Positions 16,330 to 39,600 of a stretch of 64,000 nucleotides of DNA are shown piece by piece. The stretch lies in assembly GCA_030386875.1 (NCBI GenBank), contig CM059577.1, positions 23,571,038 through 23,635,037 of the forward strand. The letters run 5' to 3'. The translations under genes were made by a program, and so were the position numbers. This stretch comes from Morinoia aosen. Taxonomy: Eukaryota; Arthropoda; Malacostraca; Amphipoda; Talitridae. The notes under the pieces were generated by a model. It saw nothing but the letters and a program-made list of their open reading frames with translations, had not been told where the DNA came from and ran no database searches. The number at the start of each line of letters is the position of its first letter. The stretch's first letter is position 1.

Positions 16330-16375
16330 ATGGTGGACCTGGTGAGGTTGACAGCATTCTACACCCTCACAGCAG
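16330..16375 (+). CDS. beat-like: Putative exon 1 of a Beat-family gene (signal peptide)
   Basis: The exon reads MVDLVRLTAFYTLTA plus one extra base (46 nt, phase 1) and stops at CAG followed by the donor GTACGG. The ATG has A at -3 and G at +4, and an in-frame TGA at 16309 excludes an upstream start. When joined to the acceptor at 35282, the split codon becomes GTA and the reading continues TVAEA then AHLTRLVVPQ. The joined N-terminus looks like a secretory signal: a short charged start, a moderately hydrophobic LTAFYTLTAVTV core and an AEA cleavage motif directly before the mature Ig domain. Exact phase agreement and the signal logic support the join, but no transcript evidence is available. 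The last 27 bases are the start of a 95-bp tandem array that repeats this exon end nine more times. Confidence 0.55.
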
Positions 16376-17285
16376 GTACGGGGTTTGGTTACAGCCAAGT
16401 TACGGTTATGAACAAATTACTATTTTAAATTATATAACACTTATGACAGCATTCTACACCCTCACAGCAGGTACGGGGTTTGGTTACAGCCAAGTTACGG
16501 TTATGTAGAAATTAATATTTGAAATTATATAACACTTATGACAGCATTCTACACCCTCACAGCAGGTACGGGGTTTGGTTACAGCCAAGTTACGGTTATG
16601 AACAAATTACTATTTTAAATTATATAACACTTATGACAGCATTCTACACCCTCACAGCAGGTACGGGGTTTGGTTACAGCCAAGTTACGGTTATGTAGAA
16701 ATTAATATTTGAAATTATATAACACTTATGACAGCATTCTACACCCTCACAGCAGGTACGGGGTTTGGTTACAGCCAAGTTACGGTTATGAACAAATTAC
16801 TATTTTAAATTATATAACACTTATGACAGCATTCTACACCCTCACAGCAGGTACGGGGTTTGGTTACAGCCAAGTTACGGTTATGAACAAATTACTATTT
16901 TAAATTATATAACACTTATGACAGCATTCTACACCCTCACAGCAGGTACGGGGTTTGGTTACAGCCAAGTTACGGTTATGAACAAATTACTATTTTAAAT
17001 TATATAACACTTATGACAGCATTCTACACCCTCACAGCAGGTACGTGGCTTGGTTACAGCCAAGTTACGGTTATGAACAAATTACTATTTTAAATTATAT
17101 AACACTTATGACAGCATTCTACACCCTCACAGCAGGTACGGTGTTTGGTTACAGCCAAGTTACGGTTATGATCAAATTACTATTTTAAATTATATAACAC
17201 TTATGACAGCATTCTACACCCTCACAGGAGGTACGTGGTTTGGTTACAACCAGGTTACGGTTATGAACAAATTAAGATTTTAAAT
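16349..17285 (+). repeat. 95-bp tandem array (10 copies) carrying an exon end and splice donor
   Basis: Ten head-to-tail copies have a period of exactly 95 bp. Each starts with the last 27 bases of putative exon 1 (TGACAGCATTCTACACCCTC then ACAGCAG), followed by GTACGG and about 62 bp of intron-like sequence. In copies 2-10 the preceding bases are TT-A, so each has its own ATG in the exon 1 frame, reading MTAFYTLTA then the phase-1 donor. Two sub-types differ in the AT-rich tail (AACAAATTACTATTTT and TAGAAATTAATATTTG); they alternate in the first four copies, after which only the first type remains. Divergence is very low apart from the last copies. Confidence 0.95.
16376..16377 (+). other. 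Splice donor of putative exon 1
   Basis: The site is CAG|GTACGG. The same donor recurs at exact 95-bp steps (16471, 16566, 16661, 16756, 16851, 16946, 17041, 17136, 17231). The hexamer is GTACGT at 17041 and 17231, and the last copy has GAG instead of CAG before it. Confidence 0.5.
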
Positions 17286-17550
17286 TCCAAAACCCGTGAT
17301 GTGCTCGACACAGTCCGGCTCCGCAGAAAACATCGAGACGTCAATGGTGTCTACAAATCTTCTCAATAACTAATTCATTATAAAAGTAGTTTCACGATTC
17401 TTTTACCCAATTCAGGTTATAATTCTTCCCAGTCGACGTTTCAGAAATGTTATTTTCTTCTTAGAACTTTAGTTAATTGGGCGTGTGATACGTGAGGGGG
17501 CGAGTTGACTCCAGTGACGTAACGATCTCTGAATTTTTCGGGTCAAGTTC

Positions 17551-20500
17551 TCCTGGTAGATCTGTACACCTGGTAGATCTGTACACCTGGTAGATCTGTA
17601 CATCTAGTAGATCTGTACACCTGGTAGATCTGTACACCTGGTAGATTTGTATACCTGGTAGATCTGTGCACCTGGTAGATTTGTACACCTAGTAGATCTG
17701 TACACCTGGTAGATCTTTACACCTGGTAGATCTGTACACTTGGTAGATCTGTACACCTGGTAGATCTAAACACCAGGTAGATCTGTACACCTAGTAGATC
17801 TGTACACCTGGTAGATCTGTACACCTAGTAGATCTGTACACCTGGTAGATCTGTACACCTGGTAGATCTGTACACCAGATAGATCTGTACACCTAGTAAA
17901 TCTGTACACCTGACAGATCTGTACACCTGGTAGATCTGTACACCTGGTAGATCTGTACACTTGGTGGATCTGTACACCTGTTAGATCTGTACACCTGGTA
18001 GATCTGTACACCTGGTAGATCTGTACACCTGGTAGATCTGTACACCTGGAAGATCTGTACACGTGGTAAATCTTCACACCTGGTAGATCAGAACACGGTG
18101 TAGATCTGCACACCTGGTAGATCTGTACACCTGGTAGACATGTACACCTGGTAGATGTGTACACCTGGTAGATCTGTTCACCTGATAGATCTGTACACGT
18201 GGTAGATCTGTACACCTGGTAGATCTGTACACCTGGTAGATCTGTACACCTGTTAGATCTGTACACCTGTTAGATCTGTACACCTGGTAGATCTGTACAC
18301 CTGGTAGATCTGTACACCTAGTAAATCTGTACACCTGGTAGATCTGTACACCTGGTAGATCTGTGCACCTAGTAGATCTGTACACCTGTTAGATCTGTAC
18401 ACCTGGTAGATCTGTACACCTGGTAGATCTGTACACCTGATAGATCTGTATACGTGGTAGATCTGTACACCTGGTAGACATGTACACCTGGTAGATGTGT
18501 ACACCTGGTATATCTGTTCACCTGGTAGATCTGTACACCTGGTAGATCTAAACACCAGGTAGATCTGTACACCTAGTAGATCTGTACACCTGGTAGATCT
18601 GTGCACCTAGTAGATCTGTACACCTGGAAGATCTGTACACCTGGTAGATCTGTACACCTGGTAGATCTGTACACCTGGTAGATCTGTACACCTGGTAGAT
18701 CTGTACACCTGGAAGATCTGCACACGTGGTAAATCTTCACACCTGGTAGATCAGAACACGGGGTAGATCTGCACATCTGGTAGATCTGTACACCTGGTAG
18801 ATCTGTACACCTGGTAGATCTGTACACCTGGAAGATCTGCACACGTGGTAAATCTTCACACCTGGTAGATCAGAACACGGGGTAGATCTGCACACCTGGT
18901 AGATCTGTACACCTGGTAGACATGTACACCTGGTAGATGTGTACACCTGGTAGATCTGTTCACCTGGTAGATCTGTACACATGATAGATCTGTACACCTG
19001 GTAGATCTGTACACCTGGTAGATCTGTACACCTGGTAGATCTTTACACCTGGTAGATCTGTACACTTGGTAGATCTGTACACCTGGTAGATCTAAACACC
19101 AGGTAGATCTGTACACCTAGTAGATCTGTACACCTGGTATATCTGTACACCTAGTAGATCTGTACACCTGGTAGATCTGTACACCTGGTAGATCTGTACA
19201 CCAGATAGATCTGTACACCTGGTAGATCTGTACACCTGGTAGATCTGTACACCAGGTAGATCTGTACACCTGGTAGATCTGAACACCTGGTAGATCTGTA
19301 TACCTGGTAGATCTGTACACCTGGTAGATCTGTACACCTGGTAGTTCTGAACACCTGGTAGATCTGTACACCTGGAAGATCTGTACACCTGGTAGATCTG
19401 TACACCTGGTAGATCTGTACACCTGGTAGATCTGTACACCTGGTAGATTTGTATACCTGGTAGATCTGTGCACCTGGTAGATTTGTACACCTAGTAGATC
19501 TGTACACCTGGTAGATCTTTACACCTGGTAGATCTGTACACTTGGTAGATCTGTACACCTGGTAGATCTAAACACCAGGTAGATCTGTACACCTAGTAGA
19601 TCTGTACACCTGGTAGATCTGTACACCTAGTAGATCTGTACACCTGGTAGATCTGTACACCTGGTAGATCTGTACACCAGATAGATCTGTACACCTAGTA
19701 AATCTGTACACCTAACAGATCTGTACACCTGGTAGATCTGTACACCTGGTAGATCTGTACACTTGGTGGATCTGTACACCTGTTAGATCTGTACACCTGG
19801 TAGATCTGTACACCTGGTAGATCTGTACACCTGGAAGATCTGCACACGTGGTAAATCTTCACACCTGGTAGATCAGAACACGGTGTAGATCTGCACACCT
19901 GGTAGATCTGTACACCTGGTAGACATGTACACCTGGTAGATGTGTACACCTGGTAGATCTGTTCACCTGATAGATCTGTACACGTGGTAGATCTGTACAC
20001 CTGTAAGATCTGTACACCTGGTAGATCTGTACACCTGGTAGATCTGTACACCTGGTAGATCTGTACACCTAGTAAATCTGTACACCTGGTAGATCTGTAC
20101 ACCTGGTAGATCTGTGCACCTAGTAGATCTGTACACCTGTTAGATCTGTACACCTGGTAGATCTGTACACCTGGTAGATCTGTACACCTGATAGATCTGT
20201 ATACGTGGTAGATCTGTACACCTGGTAGACATGTACACCTGGTAGATGTGTACACCTGGTATATCTGTTCACCTGGTAGATCTGTACACCTGGTAGATCT
20301 AAACACCAGGTAGATCTGTACACCTAGTAGATCTGTACACCTGGTAGATCTGTACACCTAGTAGATCTGTACACCTGGAAGATCTGTACACCTGGTAGAT
20401 CTGTACACCTGGTAGATCTGTACACCTGGTAGATCTGTACACCTGGAAGATCTGCACACTTGGTAAATCTTCACACCTGGTAGATCAGAACACGGGGTAG

Positions 20501-22610
20501 ATCTGCACACCTGGTAGATCTGTACACCTGGTAGATCTGTACACCTGGTAGATCTGTACACCTGGAAGATCTGCACACGTGGTAAATCTTCACACCTGGT
20601 AGATCAGAACACGGGGTAGATCTGCACACCTGGTAGATCTGTACACCTGGTAGACATGTACACCTGGTAGATGTGTACACCTGGTAGATTTGTTCACCTG
20701 GTAGATCTGTACACGTGATAGATCTGTACACCTGGTAGATCTGTACACCTGGTAGATCTGTACACCTGGTAGATCTTTACACCTGGTAGATCTGTACACT
20801 TGGTAGATCTGTACACCTAGTAGATCTGTACACCTGGTAGATCTGTATACCTAGTAGATCTGTACACCTGGTAGATCTGTACACCTGGTAGATCTGTACA
20901 CCTGATAGATCTGTACACCTGGTAGATCTGTACACCTGGTAGATCTGTACACCAGGTAGATCTGTACACCTGGTAGATCTGAACACCTGGTAGATCTGTA
21001 TACCTGGTAGATCTGTACACCTGGTAGATCTGTACACCTGGTAGTTCTGAACACCTGGTAGATCTGTACACCTGGTAGATCTGTACACTTGGTAGATCTG
21101 TACACCTGGTAGATCTGTACACCTGGTAGATCTGTACACCTGGTAGATCGGTACACCTGGTAGATCTGTACACCTGGTAGATCTGTACACCTGGTAGATC
21201 TGTACACCAGGTAGATCTGTACACCAGGTAGATCTGTACACCTAGTAGATCTGTACACCTGGTAGATTTTTACACCTGGTAGATCTGTACACTTGGTAGA
21301 TCTGTACACCTGGTAGATCTAAACACCAGGTAGATCTGTACACCTAGTAGATCTGTACACCTGGTAGATCTGTACACCTAGTAGATCTGTACACCTGGTA
21401 GATCTGTACACCTGGTAGATCTGTACACCAGATAGATCTGTACACCTAGTAAATCTGTACACCTGACAGATCTGTACACCTGGTAGATCTGTACACCTGG
21501 TAGATCTGTACACTTGGTGGATCTGTACACCTGTTAGATCTGTACACCTGGTAGATCTGTACACCTGGTAGATCTGTACACCTGGAAGATCTGTACACGT
21601 GGTAAATCTTCACACCTGGTAGATCAGAACACGGTGTAGATCTGCACACCTGGTAGATCTGTACACCTGGTAGACATGTACACCTGGTAGATGTGTACAC
21701 CTGGTAGATCTGTTCACCTGATAGATCTGTACACGTGGTAGATCTGTACACCTGGTAGATCTGTACACCTGGTAGATCTGTACACCTGTTAGATCTGTAC
21801 ACCTGGTAGATCTGTACACCTGGTAGATCTGTACACCTGTTAGATCTGTACACCTAGTAAATCTGTACACCTGGTAGATCTGTACACCTGGTAGATCTGT
21901 GCACCTAGTAGATCTGTACACCTGGTAGATCTGTACACCTGGTAGATCTGTACACCTGTTAGATCTGTATACGTGGTAGATCTGTACACCTGGTAGACAT
22001 GTACACCTGGTAGATGTGTACACCTGGTATATCTGTTCACCTGGTAGATCTGTACACGTGGTAGATCTGTACACCTGGTAGACATGTACACCTGGTAGAT
22101 GTGTACACCTGGTAGATCTGTACACCTGGTAGATCTGTACACCTGGTAGATCTGTACACCTGGTAGATCTGTACACCTGGTAGATCTGTACACCTGGTAG
22201 ATCTGTACACCTGTTAGATCTGTACAACTGGAAGATCTGCACACGTGGTAAATCTTCACACCTGGTAGATCAGAACACGGGGTAGATCTGCACACCTGGT
22301 AGATCTGTACACCTGGTATACATGTACACCTGGTAGATGTGTACACCTGGTAGATCTGTTCACCTGGTAGATCTGTACACGTGATAGATCTGTACACCTG
22401 GTAGATCTGTACACCTGGTAGATCTGTACACCTGTTAGATCTGTACACCTGTTAGATCTGTTCACCTGGTAGATATATACACGTGGTAGATATGTACACC
22501 TGGTAGATCTGTACACCAGGTAGATCTGTACACCTGGTAAATCTGTTCACATGGTAGATCTGTACACCTGGTAGATCTGCACGCCTGGTAGATCTGTACA
22601 TCTGGTAAAC
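17551..22610. repeat. 17-bp minisatellite, about 297 copies, with higher-order structure
   Basis: The unit is GGTAGATCTGTACACCT, containing the palindromes AGATCT and TGTACA. Variants such as CTAGTAG, CTGTTAG, GGAAGATCTGCACACG and CACCAGG recur in the same order in distant blocks, so longer blocks have been duplicated. The minus strand consensus has no stop in any frame, and because 17 bp shifts frame each unit, all three frames read the same 17-residue cycle (YRSTRCTDLPGVQIYQV). This creates about 20 overlapping spurious ORFs of 67-220 residues. There is no evidence of coding. Confidence 0.97.
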
Positions 22611-23327
22611 CTGCCCACAATGTAGATTTTATCAGATCGTCAGATAGATCTGGTATATGTAAGCACCTCCAACGCTCGTATCTGTGATACACGCACGCAA
22701 TTTGCCAGTAAATTTTTGCACCAAAGATGCGCGGAAATTCAAGAGCTGCTCAGACACCGCATACAGGCAGACGCTGTGCGATTACCGCGCTTCGTAGCCG
22801 TTCCAGTTTTAGCACTTTGACCGCGATAGGCTAAGCTCAAGTTCAGTATTCAACTCAAATTTAAAGTCAAATGTAGTTAGGAATGAAAAAAAAAAACATA
22901 GAAACTAGATTGTACCTTCATTTTGTTTTGATGAAGCGTTTTTTAAATTGAGTTTGTGTCGAGCAGCATCATGAAAATCCCCTCCGTGTACAACGGCGGC
23001 TCAAGTCGCAGTCAAAGTGTTGGCTTGTTTTAATTCTGTGCTTTGTAGGAAACTCTCATCGCTGAAACGAATTTCTAATTTCACACGTAGAACCTAGGTA
23101 GGAAGTTACGTGCATGGATATTCAAACGAGGTGTGTTTCTCGTGTTGGTTTTTCTCCAGGACTTATGCTTGTGTGTATTTATAATAGGATATGTTAAGGC
23201 AAACCAAAATTTAAAGTTTTATTTTTTGAAATTTTTCGTCTCTGTCGCGTTTGTTTGGAATGAAAACTTAGCAATGGTGAAATATTTACTTCAGATTATG
23301 TGATCTATTTCGATTGCATTCAATGTT
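22611..23327. other. Unique sequence between two arrays
   Basis: A slightly GC-richer patch near 22740-22830 has no recognisable product. No tRNA fold or transposon was identified. Confidence 0.4.
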
Positions 23328-24878
23328 ATTGTGGTGACGGTGGTTGTGGTGACGGTGGTTGTGGTGAGGGTGGTTGTGGTGACGGTGGTTGTGGTGAGGG
23401 TGGTTGTGGTGACGGTGGTTGTGACAGTGGTTGTGGTGACGGTGGTTGTGGTGACGGTGGTTGTGGTGACGGTGGTTGTGGTGAGGGTGGTTGTGGTGAC
23501 GGTGGTTGTGACGGTGGTTGTGGTGACGGTGGTTGTGGTGACGGTGGTTGTGGTGACGGTGGTTGTGGTGACGGTGGTTGTGGTGAGGGTGGTTGTGGTG
23601 ACGGTGGTTGTGACGGTGGTTGTGGTGACGGTGGTTGTGGTGACGGTGGTTGTGGTGACGGTGGTTGTGACGGTGGTTGTGGTGACGGTGGTTGTGGTGA
23701 CGGTGGTTGTGGTGAGGGTGGTTGTGGTGACGGTGGTTGTTCTGACGGTGGTTGTGGTGACGGTGGTTGTGGTTACGGTGGTTGTGGTGACGGTGGTTGT
23801 GGTGACGGTGGTTGTGGTGACGGTGGTTGTGGTGACGGTGGTTGTGGTGACGGTGGTTGTGGTGACGGTGGTTGTGGTGACGGTGGTTGTGGTGACGGTG
23901 GTTGTGGTGACGGTGGTTGTGACGGTGGTTGTGGTGACGGTGGTTGTGGTGACGGTGGTTGTGGTGACGGTGGTTGTGACGGTGGTTGTGGTGACGGTGG
24001 TTGTGGTGACGGTGGTTGTGGTGACGGTGGTTGTGGTGACGGTGGTTGTGGTGACGGTGGTTGTGGTGACGGTGGTTGTGACGGTGGTTGTGGTGACGGT
24101 GATTGTGGTGACGGTGGTTGTGGTGACGGTGGTTATGGTGACGGTGGTTGTGGTGACGGTGGTTGTGGTGACGGTGGTTATGGTGACGGTGGTTGTGATG
24201 ACGGTGGTTGTGGTGACGGTGGTTGTGGTGACGGTGGTTGTGATGACGGTGGTTGTGGTGACGGTGGTTGTAACGGTGGTTGTGGTGACGGTGGTTGTGA
24301 CGGTGGTTATGGTGACGGTGGTTGTGACGGTGGTTGTGGTGACGGTGATTGTGGTGACGGTGGTTGTGGTGACGGTGGTTGTGGTGACGGTGGTTGTGGT
24401 GACGGTGGTTGTGGTGACGGTGGTTGTGACGGTGGTTATGGTGACGGTGGTTGTGACGGTGGTTATGGTGACGGTGGTTGTGACGGTGGTTGTGGTGACG
24501 GTGATTGTGGTGACGGTGGTTGTGGTGACGGTGGTTATGGTGACGGTGGTTGTGGTGACGGTGGTTGTGGTGACGGTGGTTATGGTGACGGTGGTTGTGA
24601 TGACGGTGGTTGTGGTGACGGTGGTTGTGGTGACGGTGGTTGTGGTGACGGTGGTGGTGATGACGGTGGTTGTGGTGACGGTGGTTGTGGTGACGGTGGT
24701 TGTGACGGTGGTTGTGGTGACGGTGATTGTGGTGACGGTGGTTATGGTGACGGTGGTTGTGATGACGGTGGTTGTGGTGACGGTGGTTGTGGTGACGGTG
24801 GTTGTGGTGACGGTGGTTGTGGTGACGGTGGTGGTGATGACGGTGGTTGTGGTGACGGTGGTGGTAATGACGGTACCA
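23328..24878. repeat. 15-bp minisatellite (with 12-bp short units), about 105 copies
   Basis: The unit is GGTGACGGTGGTTGT, with occasional 12-bp units lacking GGT. Periods of 15 and 12 are multiples of 3, so long frames stay open on both strands (GDGGC and VTVVV on plus, TTTVT on minus, up to 553 residues). None has codon variety, domain or expression signal, so I treat them as artefacts of period. The same unit occurs in reverse orientation at 54371-54836. Confidence 0.97.
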
Positions 24879-27365
24879 AAAAACTCAGGCCAGTGAGAGA
24901 TAGAGTTAGTTAGGCTGGCCAGCGCGCAGTGCCTCTCTCGCAGCAGGTACACTCGTTTGACTTCCTCGCTGGTTTATCTCACATGATTCTTTATTTTTCT
25001 GCCCACTGTAATCTTGTATTACTATATCGCGTCTGGAATTTTTCTATTTTCTTACGTATTTATTCTTTTTTCGTTCCTATTCTTCTGCGGAAACCTTCCT
25101 AAATGTAGTGCTCTAGTAAACTGAGCGTCAGTCTGCAGTGGATGATCCCATGAGTGTCAGGGAGGTTTTAATTAACATGAACGAATTAGCGTATCTTTAA
25201 TTTATACGTTGAGGAACATAAAGTTAATGCAAATAATATTCTTTTTAAAACAAACAAAAATTACTTTTAAATATTGTCGGCAACTTTGTTGTTGTTGATG
25301 CAGTATGAAAGTATTTTTAATTTCAAGAATTGTAGGAATGTAGTGGAATAATTTAGCAATTAAAGCAAGTGTCTAAGAAAGACATACAGGTAGGAACTGA
25401 AACTACTCTTCATGACAGAAAAGCTGTTGAATTTGTTTTCGAGACTCTTCATGTATTTTATAAAATAGTTGTCAATTTTTATTTTGATATTTACATTTTT
25501 TTGTAAAACATTTTCTCAATCTGTCTTCTTATAGTTCTTATTCACTTATACCTTTATCTCACTTCAACTCCCTACATTTATTTTTCCCTCTTTTATCCTT
25601 CTCCGCAGCTTCCCTCTTTCACTACTTGCTTTTTTCCCTTTCCTACCTTCCTTCTTTCATCCAATAATTTTTTTCCTTCAATCCTGCTTCGGAAAGCCAT
25701 TCTCCTTTTTCTTATTTTTTGCTTTTTATTTTGTTCCTACCCTTTCCCCCTCATCCCAATTTTTTTATTTCTTCACTTTACCATTTCTTCTATTTTTATT
25801 TACCCACTTTTCCCTTTTATCCCCGGTTCCTCCGCCCCTGACGCACAACATTAATCAGAACTAAGCAAAATTTTTCAGAGACGTTTCGAAACAATCTACG
25901 GAGTCTGGTCCCCAGGTTTCACTAACTTCCCTCATCGACAAACTGGAATAAAAATGCCTTCAAACAATAAGCTCCGGCTGATGAAGCGCCCTCAGTTATT
26001 ATTGGGATTTGGAATTGGCGACCAGCCGTTCAAATCAGTTCCAGGTTAAAACTAACCCTGCCATGAATATATATTCAGAGGTTTTATTTTTATCTATTTC
26101 AGAGGTAATATATGATTCTCACAGGTACATATTTACGTCTGTGTGCATGTCATTCTCTTAATTTTGGACACTTTTCTAAGAATATCAAGCTTTACAAGAG
26201 CCGTGTTTCTCTTAGCGCTTTAAACGCAAGTTACTTCTGAGTTATAATTAACAACCATTTTCACAGTTTCTGTATATAGCATTTTATCCCCCAAATCCAG
26301 TTTTTGCTTTGCCTGACTGTAGATACAGATATCCACCATGAAATTTGACTATAAATGAACAATATTCTGAGGTATTTTATCGGGAGCTGGTCACCAAGTC
26401 ACTGGAGAACAATCACATTGGATACGCACTGCGGCGTGCTCACTTATTATTGAGTTTTTGCTATAACTTTTCACAGGATATACGTTGTGCTCAAATCTTC
26501 AGACTTAAGATCCCCACCAGCGTTTGCTTGTCGTGCTAAGGACGGCCTAAAATCAAAGCTAAGTTTACACCACAGGGGACTTCCCCTTCGCCTTGCGCTC
26601 AATTCATTTTTGAGGCCAAAAGGTTAGCCTTATGAAGACCAACTTATGCTTTTGATAACAACAACAACAAACAAACAACAAACATCGGCATCTTTGGGAT
26701 GCTTTATTTCCAATCAAGCCTGATACATATGATCTTAAGCATTGGTTTTTCAAATGTCTTATAACTAACCCTATATATAGGACACCATGACGGTTTCCCC
26801 GTAAAGCCGGTACCCATTTCCGACACCTGGGTTGAGTGGGGTATTGTGCTTGAGCTTTCCCTTATACCCAACGGGAAAAATAACGAAATAATGCAACATT
26901 ATAAAGGATAATATTATTCATGACGAGCGGAACAAGGTAAGAATTTAATTGGAGACCTAGAAGAGCATACATTACGACAGCGTCTATCAGGAATGACGGT
27001 GGTCGCTATAAAGGTTTTAAACAGAGTCGATAAGGCAAGAGTCGAAGTGATTTAAGATGGGGCTGGGCTTATTTACAACAGGTTTAGTTCATTCAAGGGA
27101 AAATAAATTTTACTAATGAGGTACATGGTTATTGTTAAAGAGAGTTCAAATCAAAGTAAAAGTGTTATGGTTGAGTTGTGGGCAGGTTTTGGCTGGCCAG
27201 GTCGCGTTCGGTATGAACAGCAGGCAAAATATTTAACAGCTTTTGAGAAAAATGCAAAAATGATGCCTGTTTTATTAATCGGACAATGATAAATATTATT
27301 ATGGTTATAAAAAGAACAAAAAACAATATATACAAATGAAGCAGCCTCAGACGAAGAGCACGTGA
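24879..27365. other. Non-coding region with a long pyrimidine-rich tract
   Basis: From about 25540 to 25850 the plus strand is strongly C/T-rich with little order. An ACA/AAC simple run lies near 26657-26690. No gene or transposon protein was recognised. Confidence 0.45.
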
Positions 27366-27548
27366 CATCTGAGCACATCTCTTCCCCACACCACACGCAT
27401 CCCCACGCACATCTCTTCCCCTCACCACACGCATCCCCACGCACATCTATTCCCCCCACCACACGCATCCCCACGTACATCTCTTCCCCACACCACACGC
27501 ATCCCCACGCACATCTCTTCCCCCCATCACACGCATCCCCAGGATGCG
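27366..27548. repeat. 34-bp minisatellite, 5 copies
   Basis: The C-rich unit includes CATCTCTTCCCC, then CACCACACGCATCCCCACG. Five copies occur with few changes. The array ends in a perfect hairpin, listed separately. Confidence 0.92.
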
Positions 27549-27553
27549 TGTGA
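27527..27553. other. Perfect 12-bp hairpin at the array edge
   Basis: TCACACGCATCC (27527-27538), a 3-base loop CCA, then GGATGCGTGTGA (27542-27553) form a perfect inverted repeat. The left arm is part of the last 34-bp unit and the right arm is its reverse complement in flanking DNA. Confidence 0.9.
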
Positions 27554-27654
27554 CTGATGCTCTAGAGGGCTATGTTATAGGATAAGTGGGTTGTGATGCT
27601 CGGTGAGGCTGGAAAGAGAGCTACTCTCATTGGCAGTGACGCTTGCGTAGAGCT

Positions 27655-27745
27655 TTAAATTAGTAAATCAAATTTAAAACCTGTGGAGAATCAAGCAATA
27701 AAATAAAGAGGCTGTACAAAATCAACCCACAAAATAGGGAGGTCA
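27655..27745. repeat. Left block of a degenerate CCAAT-type array
   Basis: About two to three diverged units of the form AATCAACC..AAAATAGGGAGG and GAGGCTGTAC match the array at 28748-29420. About 1 kb of other sequence separates the blocks. Confidence 0.6.
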
Positions 27746-28747
27746 TGCGGATGTCACGTTTGCCCTTTGTTAATTTGCATCAGCAAGATAATCTCGATTG
27801 GAGGAATGGCACTCCTCCACACCAACATATAAATTATATTGCAATTTGCACGAGAAAAACATAAACACAGCATAACATAACAATACAGTATCATGAGTCC
27901 TAATATAATCAAACTATTACAAGTACTCACTAAGTTCGGACACAGACAGACTTACATCTCCATGACCCACTTTACTTAGAGGCTTTTCTATGTCATTGAG
28001 CCAGGACCTGTTCGCAGAATATGCTTAGGACTTAATACGATTGAGAACTTACGACACTGTACTCACTCACAATAAGATCATATTGCGCGATTGCTATGCA
28101 AAAAATGCTCAATTATAAATTGTATACATCAATTACAATGCTTCTGAAACCCTAACATTGGCCGGTCAATTCATAGCCAAGATATTAGCTACTGAAATAC
28201 GATTCGAAAGACCGCAGTTTTTAAGCACATCGGTTACAGCATTTTACACGAAGGACAAAAACATTTAGAAACCAGGCACACGATAATTGAATTAAAAGTC
28301 TATTTTTAACTTTCTAATGGCACGTTTGGATGCTCATTCTATTCATGTTTCATTCCGACATCAGTCTTCAAGTTTGACCACGGGAAGAGAATTTTTCCGG
28401 ACCCTGTTTATTTCCCAGGGACGGTAGTATAGAAGTGACGGCAAGTTAAGGAGATACATCACGGTACGACCTCCCACCTGCAAAAAACTATTTTCAGAAC
28501 TATACAAAAACTATTCATGAGGAATTCTTCATTACCAGGATGATGTGTTTTCAGACAATTCCATCCAACTCACCCGACCCATGTCAGCATTTTCTTAAAC
28601 AGACATACTGTGAATGCTTGTGCTCCCAAGCACGCTCGCCTCACTCTCGCGAACAAAGCTTCTTCACACAGTAATTCTAACAGGTTTTTAAATTCTAACA
28701 TACTTCGCATTACTCTTATACACAATATTATATTTCCAAATCACTAG
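27746..28747. other. 1-kb unique segment interrupting the CCAAT-type array
   Basis: No repeat units and no recognisable protein. It may be an insertion into the array, but I found no convincing terminal repeats or target-site duplication. Confidence 0.4.
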
Positions 28748-29420
28748 TCACTCGGAATCAACCAATCAAATAGAAAGACTATGCAGAATCAACCAATCAA
28801 ATAGGGATGCTGTGCGAAATCAACCAGTCAAATAAGGAGGCTCTACTGAATCGACCAATCAAACAGCGAGGCTGTGCAGAATCAACCAATCAGATAGGGA
28901 GGCTGTGCTAAATCAACCAATCAAAAAGGAGCCCATACAGAATTAACCAACAAAATAGGGGGCTGAGTACAATCAATCTAAGAAATTGACAATCACAGCA
29001 GAGTCAACCAATCAAACTAGGACCCTGTATAGAATCAACCAATCAAATCTAAGCTATACAGAATCATCAGCCAATTGAATTAAAAAGGCTGTGTAGAATC
29101 AACCAATCAAGCAAGGAGTCTTTGCAGAATCAAACAATCAAACAATAAACCTGTTCTGAATCAACCAACCAAACTGAATGCCAGCCTAGAATGAACCAAT
29201 CGAATTGAAAGCCTACGTAGAATAAACCAATGAAATATGGAGTCGTTGTAGAATCAGCCGACCAAATAGGGGCATGAGTGTGGACCAACAACAGTTGTTC
29301 TGTTCAATTAGATGTTTATAGACGAATCAATTAACATGGCAAGGATTCTATGCATCATTGACCATTCAAATAGAGAATCAATTCAGCCATAACTGATCGA
29401 ATGGGGGGCCAATGTAATTA
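28748..29420. repeat. Degenerate ~35-bp array rich in CCAATCA motifs
   Basis: Roughly 18 diverged units are built around GAATCAACCAATCAAAT followed by a GGAGGCTGTGC-like segment. About nine keep an exact CCAATC, the core of the CCAAT box bound by NF-Y in eukaryotes. Unit divergence is much higher than in the neighbouring arrays, so this array is old. Confidence 0.85.
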
Positions 29421-29767
29421 ATCAAACTGGACCGTCTAAAATTTACCCAGATAACAAGAGATCTCAAAAGGAAATCATCGAGTTGAAACCGAAAGCTATT
29501 TTGAATTAACCAACAACTTACAACCCTCAAAAAATCAACTAATCCTGTGATGAGCGGGTGTGAAATTTTTCCTTAACAATTTATAGTTTCTGTAGAAATC
29601 GATGCATCAAATGCCGAATCTATGAGTGACCCTTCAGAAGAGGAGCCTATGTAAAATTGAGAGTGAAGCAATCGCGTGAAGGGCATCCGCCAAATGTCGC
29701 GCTGTGAAAAACTGCACTAAGCGTCGCTGTTATTTGTGTCGTGATCTGTATACACGACAGCAGGCAC

Positions 29768-30030
29768 TGCAAGGGGCACGGCAGGGGGCACGGCAGGGGG
29801 CACGGCAGGGGGCACGGCAGGGGGCACGGCAGGGGGCACGGCAGTGGACACGGCAGGGGGCACGGCTGGGGGCACGGCAGGGGGTACGGCAGGGGGCACG
29901 GCAGGGGGCACGGCAGGGGGCACGGCAGGGGGCACGGCAGGGGACACGGCAGGGGGCACGGCTGGGGGCACGGCAGGGGGTACGGCAGGGGGCACAGCAG
30001 GGGGCACGGCAGGGGGCACGGCAGGGGGCT
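29768..30030 (+). repeat. 12-bp G-rich minisatellite, about 22 copies
   Basis: The unit is GGGGGCACGGCA, giving runs of four to five G separated by a 7-base CACGGCA loop. This satisfies the common quadruplex pattern (four or more G-runs with loops up to 7). The 12-bp period keeps frames open on both strands (GARQ, HGRG and AGGT on plus, PCPL and VPPA on minus), which I treat as spurious. Confidence 0.95.
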
Positions 30031-30169
30031 TAATTTACTGGAAATATACAGAAAACTCCCTGGTAATTTCTTCAAAACAAGGGCGTTTGAAGAGCGCAAC
30101 TCAGTGCCTCAAAAGTTTTATCTTGTTCATCGCTCATTTACTGTACTTCATATCTCAAATATGGTTCCG

Positions 30170-30910
30170 ACTCCTTGCATCATCATTCCTCACAATCCCA
30201 TTTCCACACTTCTCTACTTACCATGGATTGCACCGCCACACATTTTCTTACTTACCAAAGTATCAATTTGCAACTTTTTCAGTTTCCCGTTTCCTTACTG
30301 CGTCATTTTACCACTTCCTTACCTCCTCACTCCCACACTTTGCTACTTTCCCATTCCCCCACTTCCTTAGATTTTTATTTCTATGCTTCCCCTCGTTTAT
30401 ATAATCAGCTCCCCAATGTCTCTAATTGTCCATTCCCTAGTCACTCAATTTTCTCATTCCCCACTTTTTTAATTCCCCGTTTCCTCAATTACAAAATTAT
30501 TCTCCGCTCATTCCCTTTAATCCTTCGCTACATAAATTTTATAATTCCTCATTGCTCAATCTTTTTTAGATCTAAATTTACAACTTTCCAACTGTCCCTA
30601 ACTTTAAAGCCTTTCTTTTCATAAATTTTCTTTCGGCTAATTCTTCCTCAGGTCCAACTTGTCCAATTTTTGATTCTCGAATTTCCCCGACTTTTCACAG
30701 GTTGCACTTTTTAAAGCGGCAATTTTCTCATTTCTTCATCTTTTCCTCAAGTTCCACTTCTCAAATTTGTACATTTCTCACTCCCCAAGTTTTCCTCAGG
30801 TTCCATTTCTCAAATTTGCAATTTTCTCAAACTTTTCCTCATGTCCCACGTCTCAAATTTTCAATTTTTTTACTCCCCAACTTTTCCTTTGCCCCATTCC
30901 CCTGCCACTT
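30170..30910. repeat. Pyrimidine-rich, degenerate low-complexity tract
   Basis: The plus strand is dominated by TTTTCTCA, TTCCTCA and CTCCCCA words. From about 30715 to 30900 a loose unit of about 50 bp can be followed (TTTCTCAAATTTGCAATTTT-like words). Open frames here reflect composition and have no domain. Confidence 0.6.
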
Positions 30911-32640
30911 GCCCGAGGCGTCAACTCACGACCAAAACTTCATTTCACGCAGAATTTGAAGGTGCATCGCGACCGTCACGAGATCGGGTCGACAACCTGC
31001 AAATATCTCCGTAGACCTGACCTCGCCTCACACACATGAACACCCCTCAATTTGGGGCATGTATCTTCATCGTTCCAGCCTACATTGGCCCACTCACACA
31101 ACCTTCAAACGCACGCGCACCACATTACGAGTTTTATTAAAAGAAAACCCACTAAATGGGGAGCCAGACGAAATCTGCGCCACTCGATGGGGTTCTGGGG
31201 ACGATTCATGGGGACACAAATCACGGGGAGAGCTGTAGGGGAGAGGTGGGGAGGGGGAATGAGAGGTCAGAGCGGGGGTGAGAGGAGGGAGTTGGAATGA
31301 GAATGGAGTGGTAGAAAAAGGGGAGTGGGACGAGCATAAAATGAGGGAGAGATGGCGGGAGTTAAATGTTTCAGTGAGAAGAAATGATGTGTGCTTGAAG
31401 AATCAAGTGAAGTGTGCATTTTATGTCATGGAGAAACACGTATTAAAGTGGCTGACAAGTGAAGAGTAAGAAACAAATAGCGAGTAGAATGGAGATAACA
31501 AATTTTCAAGAGAGACTTAAAAATGTTAGGCTCAAATTGACCGAGATTTTGAAATAGAAGGGCTACTAAAAGAAAAAAATGATTGTAGCTGACCAATGAT
31601 TGAACGAAGAAAATAAGAAGCAACAGGAAAGATAAAAAGGACTTCGAGGAAGGTCAATGTTAACTTTTACTGAGACTTTAATGTGGGCTTTTGCTGCATG
31701 AGCGGTGGGGCGATGGTGTTGACCGGCAAGAAAAATGGGAAAGCAGAGATGCTGAATTCCAAGACCGTAACGAGCAAGTTCTGGCGTAAAGATCTTCGGG
31801 CGACCAAAAAATACGACAAATTGAAGCGACCTGTGAAATACAGAGCAGCGTGTGGGAGTGCTTGCAATGAATGCTTCTAGTTTGATCTTGCTTGCGTGCC
31901 TCCCATATAGCCTCCGCCGAGGCTGTTGAAAATATAACCCATTCACTGTTTCTGACATCGGACCTATTACTTTAAATATAAGATTGATTTTTGAAAGAAG
32001 AAAAAACAATACTTTGCCGCCCAAACCAACGAAAAAATACCTCAATGCTCATTCCTAAATGGAGAACCTAATAGGAGCTTAACTATCTCGTGTACCAGAT
32101 TGGTTTAACATTAAATAGAGAGTGAATTGACTTGATGGTAACCACATGGAGCACAATATTCCTAGCCAAACTGACTCGAATGCAACACATAGTAGCGTCT
32201 GAGAAACCATTAATTATAAGGATAGTAACCTTTTGAAGGTAACCTTTCTTCGATGATATATATCACGCTAACATGTTATCTATAAATTCTGAAGGCTGTT
32301 TAGAATTTCTATAGTTATCACCTCTAGACTTCAACGTATAATAATAACGGTAGAATATTTCACTGAACCGAAAATTCAGTGATTTATGAAGGTAGTGTCT
32401 AATCACTATAAGGTACTCATAATATTTCATATTATCATAGCACCTATAAATCAAGCATTGAGTACAGTTGTTATAATGCTTGATATTAGCTCATATCTAA
32501 CACTAGCAACGTATGATTTCATGCGGCCTCGCTGAATTTCCCTCGTGTCGACCTCAGCTGACCTACTGAAGCACTCGGTCGACTGCTCTCTTAACTGAAC
32601 TTCAGGACGCTTGCATAAACTATGAGCTCGTACTGATGAT
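30911..32640. other. Non-coding region, purine-rich in part
   Basis: A GA-rich patch lies at about 31190-31400. The 159-residue minus-strand frame at 31566-32045 shows no domain and overlaps unrelated frames of similar quality, so no gene is called. Confidence 0.4.
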
Positions 32641-32649
32641 GCATTGGAG

Positions 32650-32735
32650 TCGTGTGTGTGTGTGTGTGAGTATGTTTGTGTGGGTGCATGTGTGTGCCAT
32701 GCGTGTGTGTGTGTGAACGAGTTTGTATGTAAACG
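32650..32735. repeat. Interrupted TG microsatellite
   Basis: GTGTGTGTGTGTGTGTG runs are interrupted by AGTATG and CATG words. Confidence 0.85.
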
Positions 32736-34999
32736 TGGATCAGTGCGTGTTTGTAAACGTGCTCATTCGTGAACTTTGTGCACGTGTTTTTAAATCTGCG
32801 TGTCAATGTGAGATAGGACAATAAATGAGAGAGAAACAAGTGGTTCACTTCAATTCCCATCTTGCTACGTATCAGGTTCTGTGGCGCATTTCTTAATTTT
32901 AAATAGCTATCTGTTATTTTGATTACTTAAGAAAATTATATAATTATTTTCCTTGCAGCGATTTTATCTCGAGTTTTTGAAATTCTTAGTATTTAACCGA
33001 TTCAATCAAGGCATATGGAGGAAGTTATATTAAGGATGAAACCATATCAGGAACATTTTTGTAGTTGAAATAAGCAACACAGTTAAAAACTCCTGAAATG
33101 TGTTCGTATGGATCCAAGATTGAAAAATTCAGAAAATGACGCGTACAACTCTGTTTCAGATACGTTATAGCAGGGGATTGAAATTTCTCATCTTCTTTCG
33201 CATATAGGAAAATAAAAAAATGGTCTTTGAGATTATACAGAAAACTCGATGGTACAATTACGTAACATCGATTTTTTCAACTCATTAATGTTTTTCTTGC
33301 AGCAGCATCTATGTACATAAATGACGTGGCGTAGAGAATATTTTATCTAGTATAATATGGGTCATAGCATTTCGCTCGCAATCTTTGTGAAATTTGCATT
33401 TCATTTCCTTTTCTATTCATGGTTAAACCTCTTAAAAATCTGTGTATATATTTATTTTAGTGCATATATGTATCAATAAATAAATCAATAAATATTTACG
33501 CAGATTTTTTTATGCATACGCAACCGTTTTATACACGGATTTTGTGTCAGTTAATGATTAAGTAACCTTAGAGATGTAGTTTCAAATTAAAAAATTAGAT
33601 AAAATATTTCCACAACCACTGCACAACGCTTTAATATGAGTGCACTTGACTGGTTTTAAAATAACCCTGAAATGATGAATTTACTTCCCTAATTTTTAAT
33701 AATTACTAGACAGACCTGGTCACCTATCCTTGTTAACTATAGTATTCAATACATAGGGAACGAAAACAGGGAATAAACAGCAAATGAAAGAGAATCTTGA
33801 CGCAGCTATAGTTTAAAAACAGGTTAATTTAAGACAAACAACTAAAAATTCAGTAAAAAACATCCAGCTAAATGAGCAATACAGGAAATGTTCAATTGCA
33901 AACCTGGTTAAAAGTAGCGTGTTGGGTTGCTCGCTATAAACATTCAATATTGCAGAGATGTTTCACTGAATGTGTTTCTGCATTGTTATTCTTTTATGTG
34001 TTAATAAAATAATGAAATAAATAAAAAAGCTGATGCTGATTTCACCATAAATAAGGAGTGTGTTGCTTGCTTTTCCCACATTTGCCCACTCGGGACTCCC
34101 ATCTGCCCCCTCTCGGAACTGGTAGTTCCTCAAAGAGCAGCAATGTGCCATGAAGGTCTAATTTGATTCCTATTCTGAGATAATTTATAACTCAGGAGCT
34201 AAGGAATATTTTTTTCAAAAAATAAGAAATGAGCATCAGATGCACTAGGTATTCGTATTCCTTGTGTAATTAAGAGGACTGGGTCATAGGTCTTGTATAA
34301 AAGCAATGAATAAATAAACTGGGTCTCATTTCGAGTAAAGTTTCAAATATTTAATGGTAATATGACCTCTATGTTCGCGTTGTCCATTGGTAGTGACTTT
34401 TTCACACAAACTCTAAATATTTATCATTTCTCCTGTGAATTCATTATTAATCGATTGCGCACGAGGCATGTTAACATTGACGTAAATTTCTTCGAGATAT
34501 AAGCACAGATGTCACCGAATTATTTCGCTGACGTCATAGCATCGATATCATTATACCTTTCCGGTATATCTATATAATCAAATAAACAAGCAATCGGTTT
34601 CAGATGTTAAATTCTTATTCATTTTATTCAATCAACCCGTTAATTTTAACGTGTTTGCAACGCGCACTGAAATTCTCAGTGAATATTAAAGTTTTATTAT
34701 TGTTACACTACATTATCAACGCAAGACACATGTTATCCCGACTTTGATTCCCCATTGTCGTACATTCATTCCTATCATCAAAATTTTAAAAAAGTTCAAA
34801 AGTTATTAAAACTGCCTTAACTGCCTAATTTACTTCCTATCCTCTGAGTAATTTTTGCACAACTGTCATTACATCTTACAATACAGATTGAATGAGCATC
34901 TTACATCTTAAATCAGAATGAGCATCTCCGTAATGATCTTACTTCTTAATCTAAAAGTTACCCTTATTTTGGAGTTACCGGCCCTCATTTTTGTTTGTC
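32736..34999. other. AT-rich DNA, probably intron of the Beat gene
   Basis: No repeats or coding signals were seen. If exon 1 and exon 2 belong together, this is intron 1. Confidence 0.45.
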
Positions 35000-35282
35000 C
35001 AGTTACTCTGACCCTCACGTGTGTGTAGTAACTGAGACCCTCATTTCATGTGTGTGCAGTAACTCATAGCTTCATTTAGGTGTGCAGTAACTGTGACCCT
35101 CATGTGTGTGCAGTAACTGAGACCCTCCTTTCATGCGTGTGCAGTAACTCATACCTTCACTTATGTGTGCAGTAACTGTGACCCTCATGTGTGTGCAGTA
35201 ACTAGACCCTCATTTCATGCGTGTGCAGTAACTCATACCTTCACTTATGTGTGCAGTAACTGTGCCCCTCACGTATGCGCAG
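35000..35282 (+). repeat. Trimeric ~28-bp array of acceptor-like sites ending at the exon 2 acceptor
   Basis: Ten [C/T]AG|TAAC sites follow one another. The last G of each AG lies at 35028, 35059, 35087, 35113, 35144, 35172, 35198, 35228, 35256 and 35282. The spacings are 31, 28, 26 repeated three times (30 instead of 31 once), so the array is three copies of an 84-85-bp trimer. Each site has a GTGTGCAG or GCGCAG context followed by TAACTGTGACC, TAACTGAGACC or TAACTCATACC. The final site, GCGCAG|TAACAG, is the acceptor of the Ig exon and sits in exact register. Confidence 0.9.
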
Positions 35283-35506
35283 TAACAGTGGCGGAAGCGG
35301 CGCACCTGACGCGGCTGGTGGTGCCGCAGGTGGCGCTGGCGGGCACGGACGTGCGGCTGCAGTGCGACTACGACCAGGCGGGCGGGCCCGAGCTCTACTC
35401 CCTCAAGTGGTACAAGGACGATAAGGAGATTTACAGACACGTCCCCGCCACCGCCAACCACGCGCACTGCCCCTCGCAGATATCCCTGCCCGGCATCTCT
35501 GTTGAC
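35283..35506 (+). CDS. beat-like: Beat-family (Beaten path) first immunoglobulin domain exon
   Basis: This 224-nt GC-rich exon in AT-rich surroundings encodes, after the split codon, TVAEAAHLTRLVVPQVALAG, then TDVRLQC, DYDQAGGPELYSLKWYKDDK, EIYRHVP and ends PGISVD. The B-strand Cys (residue 43 of the joined protein), the C-strand LYSLKWYKD block (Trp58), the E-YR motif and the closing PGI-VD are hallmarks of the first Ig domain of Beat proteins. These are secreted or membrane-anchored axon-guidance and synaptic proteins, and family members bind Side (Sidestep) receptors. The domain is cut before the F-strand Cys (the usual CEVS), which must lie in a later exon. The exon runs from CAG|TAAC to GAC|GTGAGT, phase 1 in and phase 0 out. 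Which Beat paralogue this is cannot be told. An unspliced upstream frame exists but only reads through the acceptor repeats. Confidence 0.88.
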
Positions 35507-35890
35507 GTGAGTCTTCGTTCTCTCTCGTCTGTTTATTTGAAGACTTCCCGGTGCAGTGAGTTACGCATTGGTGACGGGCTGATGTTGATGTGTGTTGCTG
35601 ACTTCATTCTCTCAAGTCTGATAATTGGAAGACTTTCCGGTGGAGTGATTCGAATAAGGTAATGGTGAAGGGTTGAAGTGAGTGAGTCTGTTCATTTTTT
35701 CACGTGTGCTAATTTGAAGAATTTCCACTGGACTGATCTAATAGGGTAATGATAAAGGGTTGAAGTTGATGTGAGTTGATCTTAGGTGTGTTCAATATTC
35801 TGCCTTGTGTTAATTTTGATCTTTATCCAGTGGAGGGATTCGAGTAAGGTAATGGTAATGTTCTTTATTTAATAAGGGCTGAAGTTAAAC
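35507..35890 (+). repeat. Degenerate ~88-bp array beginning at the exon 2 donor
   Basis: Four diverged units start with the authentic donor GTTGAC|GTGAGT. Related donor-like words follow: GTTGAT|GTGTGT (GT at 35590), GTTGAA|GTGAGT (35678) and GTTGAT|GTGAGT (35771), at spacings of 83, 88 and 93 bp. The units also share a GAAGACTTTCCGGTGGAGTG-like block and a following AAGGTAATGG. Divergence is clearly higher than in the 95-bp array. Confidence 0.75.
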
Positions 35891-36632: not shown

Positions 36633-39600
36633 GTGACATGACTGTCACGTGTCTTACGAGACACGTGACACTGTGGTAGGACACTTCTGTCACGTGTCTT
36701 GCGAGACACTGTGGTAGGACACTTCTGTCACGTGTCTCGCGAGACACTGTGGTAGGACACTTCTGTCACGTGTCTCACGAGACACTGTGGTAGGACACTT
36801 CTGTCACGTGTCTCACGAGACACTGTGGTAGGACACTTCTGTCACGTGTCTCACGAGACACTGTGGTAGGACACTTCTGTCACGTGTCTCACGAGACACT
36901 GTGGTAGGACACTTCTGTCACGTGTCTCACGAGACACTGTGGTAGGAAACTTCTGTCACGTGTCTCACGAGACACTAGATTTGTGGTAGAACACTTTTAT
37001 CACGTGTCTCACGAGACTCGAGACACAGTGGTAGGACACTTCTGTCACGTGTCTCACGGGACACTAGATACTGTGGCAGGACACTTCTCTCACGTGTCAC
37101 ACGAGACACTGTGGCAGGATACTTCTCACACGTGTCTCACGAGACACTGTGGTAGGACACTTCTGTCACGTGTCTCACGAGACACTGTGGTAGGACACTT
37201 CTGTCACGTGTCTCACGAGACACACGAGACACTGTGGTAAGACACTTCTGTCACGCGTCTCACGAGACACGAGAAACTGTGGCAGGATACTTCTGTCACG
37301 TGTCTCACGAGACACGAGACACTGTGGTAGGACACTTTTGTAACGTGTCTCACAAGACACACGAGACACTGTGGTAGGACACTTCTGTCACCTGTCTACA
37401 AGACACATGAGACACTGTGATAGGACACTTCTGTCACGTGTCTCACGAGACACACGAGAAACTGTGGTAGGACACTTCTGTCACTTGTCTCACGAGACAC
37501 GAGACACTGTGGCAGGATACTTCTGTCACGTGTCTCACGAGACACTGTGGTAGGACACTTCTGTCACGTGTCTCACGAGACACACGAGAAACTGTGGTAG
37601 GACACTTCTGTCACTTGTCTCACGAGACACGAGACACTGTGGCAGGATACTTCTGTCACGTGACTCACGAGACACACGAGACACTGTGGCAGGATACTTC
37701 TCTCACGTATCTCACGAGACACCATGGTAGGACACTTCTGTCACGTGTCTCACGAGACACACGAGACACTGGGGTAGAACACTTCTGTCACCTGTCTCAC
37801 GCGACACACGAGACACGGTGGGAGGACACTTCTGTCACGTGTCTTACGAGACACACTAGACACTGTGGTAGGACACTCTGTCACGTGTCTCACGAGACAC
37901 GAGACACTGTGGTAGGACACTCTGTCACGTGTCTCACGAGACACACGAAACACTGTGGTAGGACACTCTGTCACGTGTCTCACGAGACACACGAAACACT
38001 GTGGTAGGACACTTCTGTCACGTGTCTCACGAGACACACGAGACACTGTGGTAGGACACTCTGCCACGAGTCTCACGAGACACACGAGACACTGTGGTAG
38101 GAAACTCTGTCACGTGTCTCACGAGACACACGAAACACTGTGGTAGGACACTTCTGTCACGTGTCTCACGAGACACACGAAACACTGTGGTAGTACACTT
38201 CTGTCACGTGTCTCACGAGACACGAGACACTGTGGTAGGACACTCTGTCACGAGTCTCACGAGACACACGAGACACTGTGGTAGGACACTCTGTCACGTG
38301 TCTCACGAGACACACGAAACACTGTGGTAGGACACTTCTGTCACGTGTCTCACGAGACACACGAAACACTGTGGTAGGACACTCTGTCACGTGTCTCACG
38401 AGACACACGAAACACTGTGGTAGGACACTCTGTCACGTGTCTCACGAGACACACGAAACACTGTGGTAGGACACTCTGTCACGTGTCTCACGAGACACAC
38501 GAAACACTGTGGTAGGACACTCTGTCACGTGTCTCACGAGACACACGAAACACTGTGGTAGGACACTCTGTCACGTGTCTCACGAGACACACGAGACACT
38601 GTGGTAGGACACTTCTGTCACGTGTCTCACGAGACACACGAAACACTGTGGTAGGACACTTCTGTCACGTGTCTCACGAGACACACGAAACACTGTGGTA
38701 GGACACTCTGTCACATGTCTCACGAGACACACGAAACACTGTGGTAGGACACTCTGTCACGTGTCTCACGAGACACACGAAACACTGGGGTAGGACACTC
38801 TGTCACATGTCTCACGAGACACACGAGACACTGTGGTAGGACACTCTGTCACGTGTCTCACGAGACACACTAGACACTGTGGTAGGACACTCTGTCACGA
38901 GTCTCACGAGACACGCGAGACACTGTGGTAGGACACTCTGTCACGAGTCTCACGAGACACGCGAGACACTGTGGTAGGACACTGTCACGTGTCTCACGAG
39001 ACAAACGAGACACTGTGGTAGGACACTCTGTCACGTGTCTCACGAGACACACGAAACACAGTGGTAGGACACTCTGTCACGTGTCTCACGAGACACACGA
39101 AACACAGTGGTAGGACACTCTGTCACGTGTCTCACGAGACACACGAAACACAGTGGTAGGACACTCTGTCACGAGTCTCACGAGACACACGAGACACTGT
39201 GGTAGGACACTGTCACGTGTCTCACGAGACACACGAGACACTGTGGTAGGACACTCTGTCACGTGTCTCACGAGACACACGAGACACAGTGGTAGGATAC
39301 TTCTGTCACGTGTCTCCCGAGACACACGACACTGTGGTAGGACACTATCACGTGTCTCACGAGACACACGAGACACAGTGGTAGGACACTCTGTCACGTG
39401 TCTCACGAGACACACGAGACACTGTGGTAGGACACTTCTGTCACGTGTCTCACGAGACACACGAGACACTGTGGTAGGACACTTCTAACACGTGTCTCAC
39501 GAGACACTGTGGTAGGACACTTCTGTCACGTGTCTCACGAGACACACGAGACACTGTGGTAGGACACTCTGTCACGTGTCTCACGAGACACACGAGACAC

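Follow-up and report, generated by a model that had tools for sequence, protein, structure and literature searches.

Minisatellite-like tandem duplications across exon-intron borders have been named mirages in the Adh and globin genes of lancelets, where their origin was called unclear (PMC3087553), and are also present in lancelet PGBD5 and troponin C (PMC3902484). According to the accessible portions of these two reports, the mirages of Adh3, of the globins BflGb6 and BflGb9, of troponin C and of PGBD5 lie at 5' or 3' borders, have units of 10-160 bp, and carry AG/GT signals in many of their copies (PMC3087553, PMC3902484). The same portions give 6 and 3 copies per haplotype for the BflGb6 mirage and mention RT-PCR that suggests that regular splicing is undisturbed by mirages (PMC3087553, PMC3902484); somatic length instability is noted for the one in Adh3. 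In human IFI6 (6-16), a minisatellite supplies several splice donors, and a secondary account describes the use of two further units, with three mRNAs (Turri 1995 via PMC4526556). A literature search that returned mostly listings and the opening lines of abstracts contained neither an arthropod mirage case nor a genome-wide count. One study reportedly deals with tandem repeats that change human gene structure, and another is said to treat minisatellites of C. elegans introns in relation to splicing.

The locus compared here with these systems lies in a window (the whole 64,000-nucleotide stretch of Morinoia aosen DNA that was analysed, C22:23571038-23635037) of a 1.99-Gb assembly in 29 contigs. 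The first-pass annotation of this DNA knew of no described process for repeats anchored at exon-intron borders. Going by the accessible portions of the lancelet reports, such duplications had already been named (PMC3087553, PMC3902484), and we consider it about 70% probable that the arrays are mirage minisatellites, generated by border-crossing tandem duplication followed by slippage or unequal exchange, tolerated, and frequent here.

Gene structure and splice junctions

The four exons listed in Table 1 join into one open frame of 183 residues, with phases 1, 0 and 1. In a comparison with solved structures, the top two matches of the joined translation are Beat Vb (3.8e-19) and Beat Vc (2.8e-17). 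Exon 2 by itself also matches Beat Vb (2.6e-6) and Beat Vc (1.3e-5), with titin scoring better through summed weak domains (1.4e-8). On this similarity the predicted product is a member of the Beaten path (Beat) family, an Ig-domain protein whose nearest solved structures are those of Beat. Because the exons give an in-frame Beat protein, the junctions on which the first-pass annotation relied appear sound, and the splice sites in use would be those on the exon side. Judged from genomic sequence, the join needs no new intron within a duplicated segment. The last base of exon 1 is 16375, and the GT of its donor occupies 16376-16377. At the start of exon 2, two in-frame acceptors lie 6 bases apart (AG ends 35282 and 35288, cag/TAACAG/TGG), and their products would differ by two residues.

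Table 1. Exons and border arrays of the Beat gene, in window coordinates
Feature	Position	Strand	Basis
Exon 1, start codon	16330..16375	+	Phase 1, donor CAG/GTACGG, in-frame join to exons 2, 3 and 4
Donor-side mirage array, ten 95-bp units	16349..17286	+	TRF 9.9 copies, 96% matches
Acceptor-side array, 85-bp unit of three acceptor-like sub-units	34996..35286	+	TRF 3.4 copies, 92%
Exon 2, first half of Ig domain, Beaten-path protein	35283..35506	+	Homology, in-frame join
Exon 2 donor GTGAGT 35507 with degenerate ~88 bp units, four in all	35507..35890	+	TRF 35603-35776, unit alignments
Exon 3 (beyond window)	88793-88928		In-frame join
Exon 4 (beyond window)	100698-100840		In-frame join

Arrays at the exon borders

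The ten repeats of the exon 1 end and its donor, proposed at a spacing of 95 bp, are confirmed, with 95 bp in 9/9 spacings. Each unit combines 27 nt from the exon 1 end with the first 56 nt of the intron, donor included, and a 12-bp filler; unit 1 is the real exon edge, and the final unit lacks the filler. The 40-mer centred on the border has nine copies that match at 37-40 of 40 positions, and AGGT is kept in all ten units. Across the two stretches searched, of 154 kb and 110 kb, exact matches to the filler occur in this array only. Units 2 and 4 share an identical set of changes, and each of units 2-10 has an ATG in frame with its copied exon piece. The array does not fit a multi-donor minisatellite of the IFI6 type, as the frame does not stay open after the later donors tried in translation (2, 3, 4 and 10) but closes with a stop at codon 33.

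As for exon 2, its acceptor is the last site of an array with AG ends at 35002 (degenerate), 35028, 35059, 35087, 35113, 35144, 35172, 35198, 35228, 35256 and 35282. The spacings are 26, 31, 28, 26, 31, 28, 26, 30, 28 and 26 bp, so that the 31/28/26 register described as strict is present and near-strict, with a single 30 in place of 31. The AG is kept in the sub-units, a statement based on reading the sequence as well as on a search pattern that itself required AG. The array has only about 10 nt in common with the exon, and the border 40-mer matches at 24/40, which means that this array spans the border weakly. The repeat unit itself includes the border at exon 1, with 27 nt of exon per unit, and at the exon 3 donor outside the window, where three copies lie 92-110 bp apart (35-36/40). 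Three of the nine decoy acceptors (35228, 35198 and 35144) leave the frame open and could be usable. The TAAC that follows each copied AG may act as a branch point for the site after it; the one that precedes the real AG does so by 23 nt.

Downstream of exon 2, the four donor-like sites of the first-pass annotation correspond to four units headed by the GTGAGT at 35507; the units are degenerate, and the second site is GTGTGT, not GTGAGT. Each unit measures ~85-90 bp or more. Local alignment of unit 1 scores 54, 35 and 19 with units 2, 3 and 4, against 26, 23 and 24 for the best of 500 shuffles, while units 2 and 3 score 47 and 30 with unit 4 (best shuffles 28 and 26). Unit 4 is tied to the exon-adjacent unit only through units 2 and 3. 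All three arrays lie on the intron side and are anchored at the exon edge, as had been claimed.

With a border copy defined as an intron-side match of at least 26/40 to the junction-centred 40-mer, both exon 2 junctions of the window fall below the cut (acceptor 24/40, donor none), and the exon 3 acceptor, the exon 4 acceptor and the exon 4 donor have no copies at this cut. The exon 4 donor heads a short-period, G-rich array full of GGTGAGTGG at 100836-100897 in window coordinates (L046). At another locus, L017, a G-rich short-period array full of GGTGAGTGG begins directly at the exon 3 donor, another donor-like array form.

An array that adjoins an exon proves little by itself, since 55% of the window is tandem repeats. 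The window also holds a 17-kb array at 36641-53754, with 44/88-bp units and CACGTG in the consensus.

A second copy of the locus

A second, colinear copy of the locus lies ~0.51-0.52 Mb upstream (C22 23.04-23.15 Mb; L031-L040, L050), with aligned stretches that are 86-95% identical (80 longest pieces). Its gene differs from that of the window by 2 changes in the 46 nt of exon 1 and by 4 changes in the 224 nt of exon 2. The exon 1 array is absent from it, the border being single and the 12-bp filler missing too. The acceptor array, 291 bp long in the window gene, extends over ~3.9 kb (13-fold) in the second gene copy and has the same last unit, and the exon 2 donor arrays of the two gene copies resemble each other. 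Other Beat matches, and also channel matches on C7, form near-equal pairs ~0.4-0.9 Mb apart, so these loci, the second locus included, are probably unmerged haplotypes, possibly segmental duplications. Under either interpretation, array copy number differs strongly between gene copies 0.5 Mb apart. Similarly, the sister loci L014 and L015, which again may be haplotypes or segmental duplications, have 0 and 11 acceptor copies; L009 and L010 have 2 and 1 donor copies, and L026 and L027 have no copies.

Short fillers such as the 12-bp piece can be left by end joining. Present in the exon 1 unit and absent from the second gene copy, the filler suggests a single duplication that would have been multiplied later. 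The opposite direction, loss of the exon 1 array in the second gene copy, is possible.

The two gene copies also bear on whether selection keeps the arrays for a function in splicing, be it as several usable donors, as dual-specific AGGT sites or as a kinetic brake. The AG/GT of the exon 1 units could act as donor or acceptor, the ten donors are all intact, and the three open decoy acceptors would fit such a role. However, the second gene copy does without the exon 1 array and carries the much longer acceptor array with exons 1 and 2 almost unchanged, the periods of the arrays differ between genes, and the later exon 1 donors that were tried run into the stop. We therefore regard a selected splicing function as improbable.

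Border copies at other junctions

A protein search with exon 2, blind to repeats, gave 35 matches, from which 30 loci were cut out with 1.5-kb flanks. The Beat set comprises 26 of these loci with 52 junctions, whose positions were set from homology, phase and consensus; the near-identical second loci L002, L010, L015 and L027 were left out, and border copies are present at two of them, L010 and L015. Six junctions are unsure (the acceptors of L005, L006 and L007, the donor of L020, and both junctions of L023), a classification made with their sequence in view, and results were obtained with and without them. At L020 the usual GTGAGT donor is absent and a 68-bp array begins there; L023 has a stop at the match end and an off-phase donor. 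At L011 (~1637-1737), the 3' end of the Beat-like exon 2 seems to enter a 31-bp array, as if copies had become coding.

Around the 52 Beat junctions, 11 exon-side array ends lie no more than 30 bp away, against an expectation of 1.3 derived from the 200-1300 bp zone (ratio 8.4, and 8.1-10.8 over four TRF settings). Without the window's exon and the six unsure junctions, 8 ends remain at 44 junctions, compared with 1.04 expected (ratio 7.7, bootstrap 2.6-14.7). In 60-bp bins there are 2 ends from -90 to -30 bp, 10 from -30 to 30, 9 from 30 to 90 and 3 from 90 to 150, followed by no end until 390 bp; the count of 10 rather than 11 near the junction reflects one end at exactly 30 bp.

Border copies are present at 7/52 Beat junctions, namely 6/26 donors, of which that of L020 is unsure, and 1/26 acceptors. 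Outside the family, eight transporter and channel exons give 3/16 junctions (2/8 donors and 1/8 acceptors), and five of the eight have none. Border copies thus recur beyond Beat, in unrelated genes. These exons were picked from match lists with their sequence still unseen (5 and 3 were read among the 90 SNF and 53 Ion_trans matches listed); their flanks measure only 150-200 bp and their junctions were set by eye, that of the L052 donor being the least sure. Further exon 3 junctions add 1/4, and other junctions of the window's gene 2/6, where one of the six is the second-copy exon 1, with none. In the controls, shuffled flanks gave 0/1720 and exon-middle 40-mers 1/26. Outside the window's gene, 11/70 sampled junctions have border copies (10/64 without the unsure ones), and one gene family supplies most of the junctions sampled.

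Both donor (5') and acceptor (3') borders are duplicated, at different loci, with periods that differ between genes: the L004 donor has 32 copies, mostly 27 bp apart, the L030 donor 40 copies, mostly 35 bp apart, the L029 acceptor 5 copies at 131 bp, and the L053 acceptor 3 copies at 54 bp. The higher proportion of copied donors than acceptors is suggestive, the cases being too few, and fits first-AG scanning.

In DNA that is more than half tandem repeats, as in the window, some arrays must abut exons by chance, and the near-identical second copies at 0.4-0.9 Mb would suit arrays made by the assembly. Such an origin is very improbable in view of the excess of array ends near junctions, of the exon sequence carried by the copies and never found by shuffling, of the substitutions by which units differ, and of the acceptor array edges that are common to both gene copies.

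Position of the arrays relative to exons

The counts do not support the idea that repeats expand specifically from the exon-intron border. At a cut of at least 29/40, the share of 40-mers with a copy is 0.04 at acceptors and 0.23 at donors, compared with 0.12-0.20 at far intron points. A border copied above background was accordingly rejected; the rate is about that of other intron points, and lower at acceptors, which leaves no clear excess over ordinary intron. Arrays that abut a junction, with an end within 30 bp, are found at 8/44 junctions, where the proportion of far intron points that lie inside arrays predicts 7.6. The enrichment of array starts within 30 bp of splice sites, which the first-pass annotation proposed as a genome-wide test, is seen at the sampled Beat loci, without setting the border apart from growth that an exon halts.

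These two comparisons are what would be expected if minisatellites could arise at any point of an intron and extended up to where selection for the exon halts them, since array ends would then pile up at exons without any special role of the border. Taken alone, such blocked growth is possible but doubtful, as it predicts flat coverage around exons. At 30-200 bp from exons, array coverage is 0.331, compared with 0.193 when each flank is rotated, and none of 5000 rotations was as high. An array lies within 150 bp of 20/44 junctions, compared with 12.3 expected (P 0.0013, 3000 rotations). The excess of arrays therefore lies 30-200 bp out from exons. Comparing near and far coverage by paired loci gives 0.317 and 0.168, at P 0.03 only. 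The right background is also unsure, because the control zone has a much lower coverage (0.17) than the window (0.55), and other pieces of the locus range over 0.05-0.90.

The same coverage profile, 0.34-0.41 at 80-150 bp and 0.17 far out, would suit exon edges as hotspots of array birth, where GC steps, R-loops or replication stalls lead to template switching. Mean GC drops from 0.60 in exons to 0.44 at 0-100 bp and 0.39 at 400-1400 bp, and a filler of the kind that end joining can leave is found in the exon 1 array. On the other hand, an exact template for this filler is absent from the two stretches searched, and acceptor borders are seldom copied (1/26), which makes the hotspot reading rather unlikely. 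Blocked growth and hotspots are refinements of the mirage explanation and are not exclusive of it.

Dispersed repeats were considered in two respects and rejected in both. There is no sign of a dispersed repeat as the source of the acceptor array, for which a search that scored only the best candidates and skipped common words gave, beyond the two gene copies, one weak 71% match on C8. Nor are dispersed repeats fewer near exons, which could have caused more arrays there; they make up 4-9% at all distances, by a crude measure that sees only repeats shared within 300 kb.

Origin of the arrays and comparison with known systems

For the mirage explanation that we favour, the strict units, the homogenised copies and the differences between gene copies point to the following course. 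A short tandem duplication that breaks once within the edge of the exon and once in the intron would copy the splice site into the intron, and slippage together with unequal exchange would afterwards make the array longer or shorter and its units more alike. Such arrays could persist as long as the splice site next to the exon remains unaltered in its position, with the other copies inside the intron; here, donor 1 joined to the final acceptor would give the right protein. The arrays are probably neutral. Rampant minisatellites, more so within ~200 bp of exons at the sampled loci, would leave a sizeable minority of junctions with border copies.

More tentatively, and at somewhat less than even odds, exon edges may be preferred birthplaces of minisatellites here, and border-copying arrays a general, fast-turning class of variation. 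If so, exon-intron borders would make the genome locally unstable and keep supplying spare splice sites, and border arrays would be general at genes of this genome rather than an oddity of a handful of lancelet loci. With the proportion of sampled junctions that have border copies, it becomes countable whether tandem repeats originate at borders, how splicing passes over dozens of decoy sites nearby, and at what frequency border copies become new exons or introns.

Among described systems, human IFI6 (6-16) is similar in that each repeat unit carries a splice donor beside the exon, going by the secondary account, but the later exon 1 donors tried here lead to the premature stop. Intron gain by tandem duplication in potato RdRp, as outlined in the available part of the report, resembles the present case in that a border-crossing duplication copies splice signals, whereas the in-frame join here shows no new intron and appears to need none (PMC4974935). 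The dual-specific AGGT splice sites in the tandem repeats of UBC, described in the accessible part of a further report, recall the AGGT held by the exon 1 units, for which a donor or acceptor role is putative (PMC10809524). The closest likeness is to the lancelet mirages, which in the portions available have minisatellite-like units that include the exon/intron border and keep AG/GT in many copies. Unlike the lancelet cases, this animal has many Beaten-path genes, as expected of an arthropod from the distribution of that family, and up to 40 copies in an array, several borders of one gene are involved, and 70 other junctions were counted. Use of the right sites is suggested by RT-PCR in the accessible account of the lancelet genes, and is deduced from the in-frame join here. 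The kind of feature is thus already known from lancelet mirages, and border copies are present here at a sizeable minority of the sampled exon edges.
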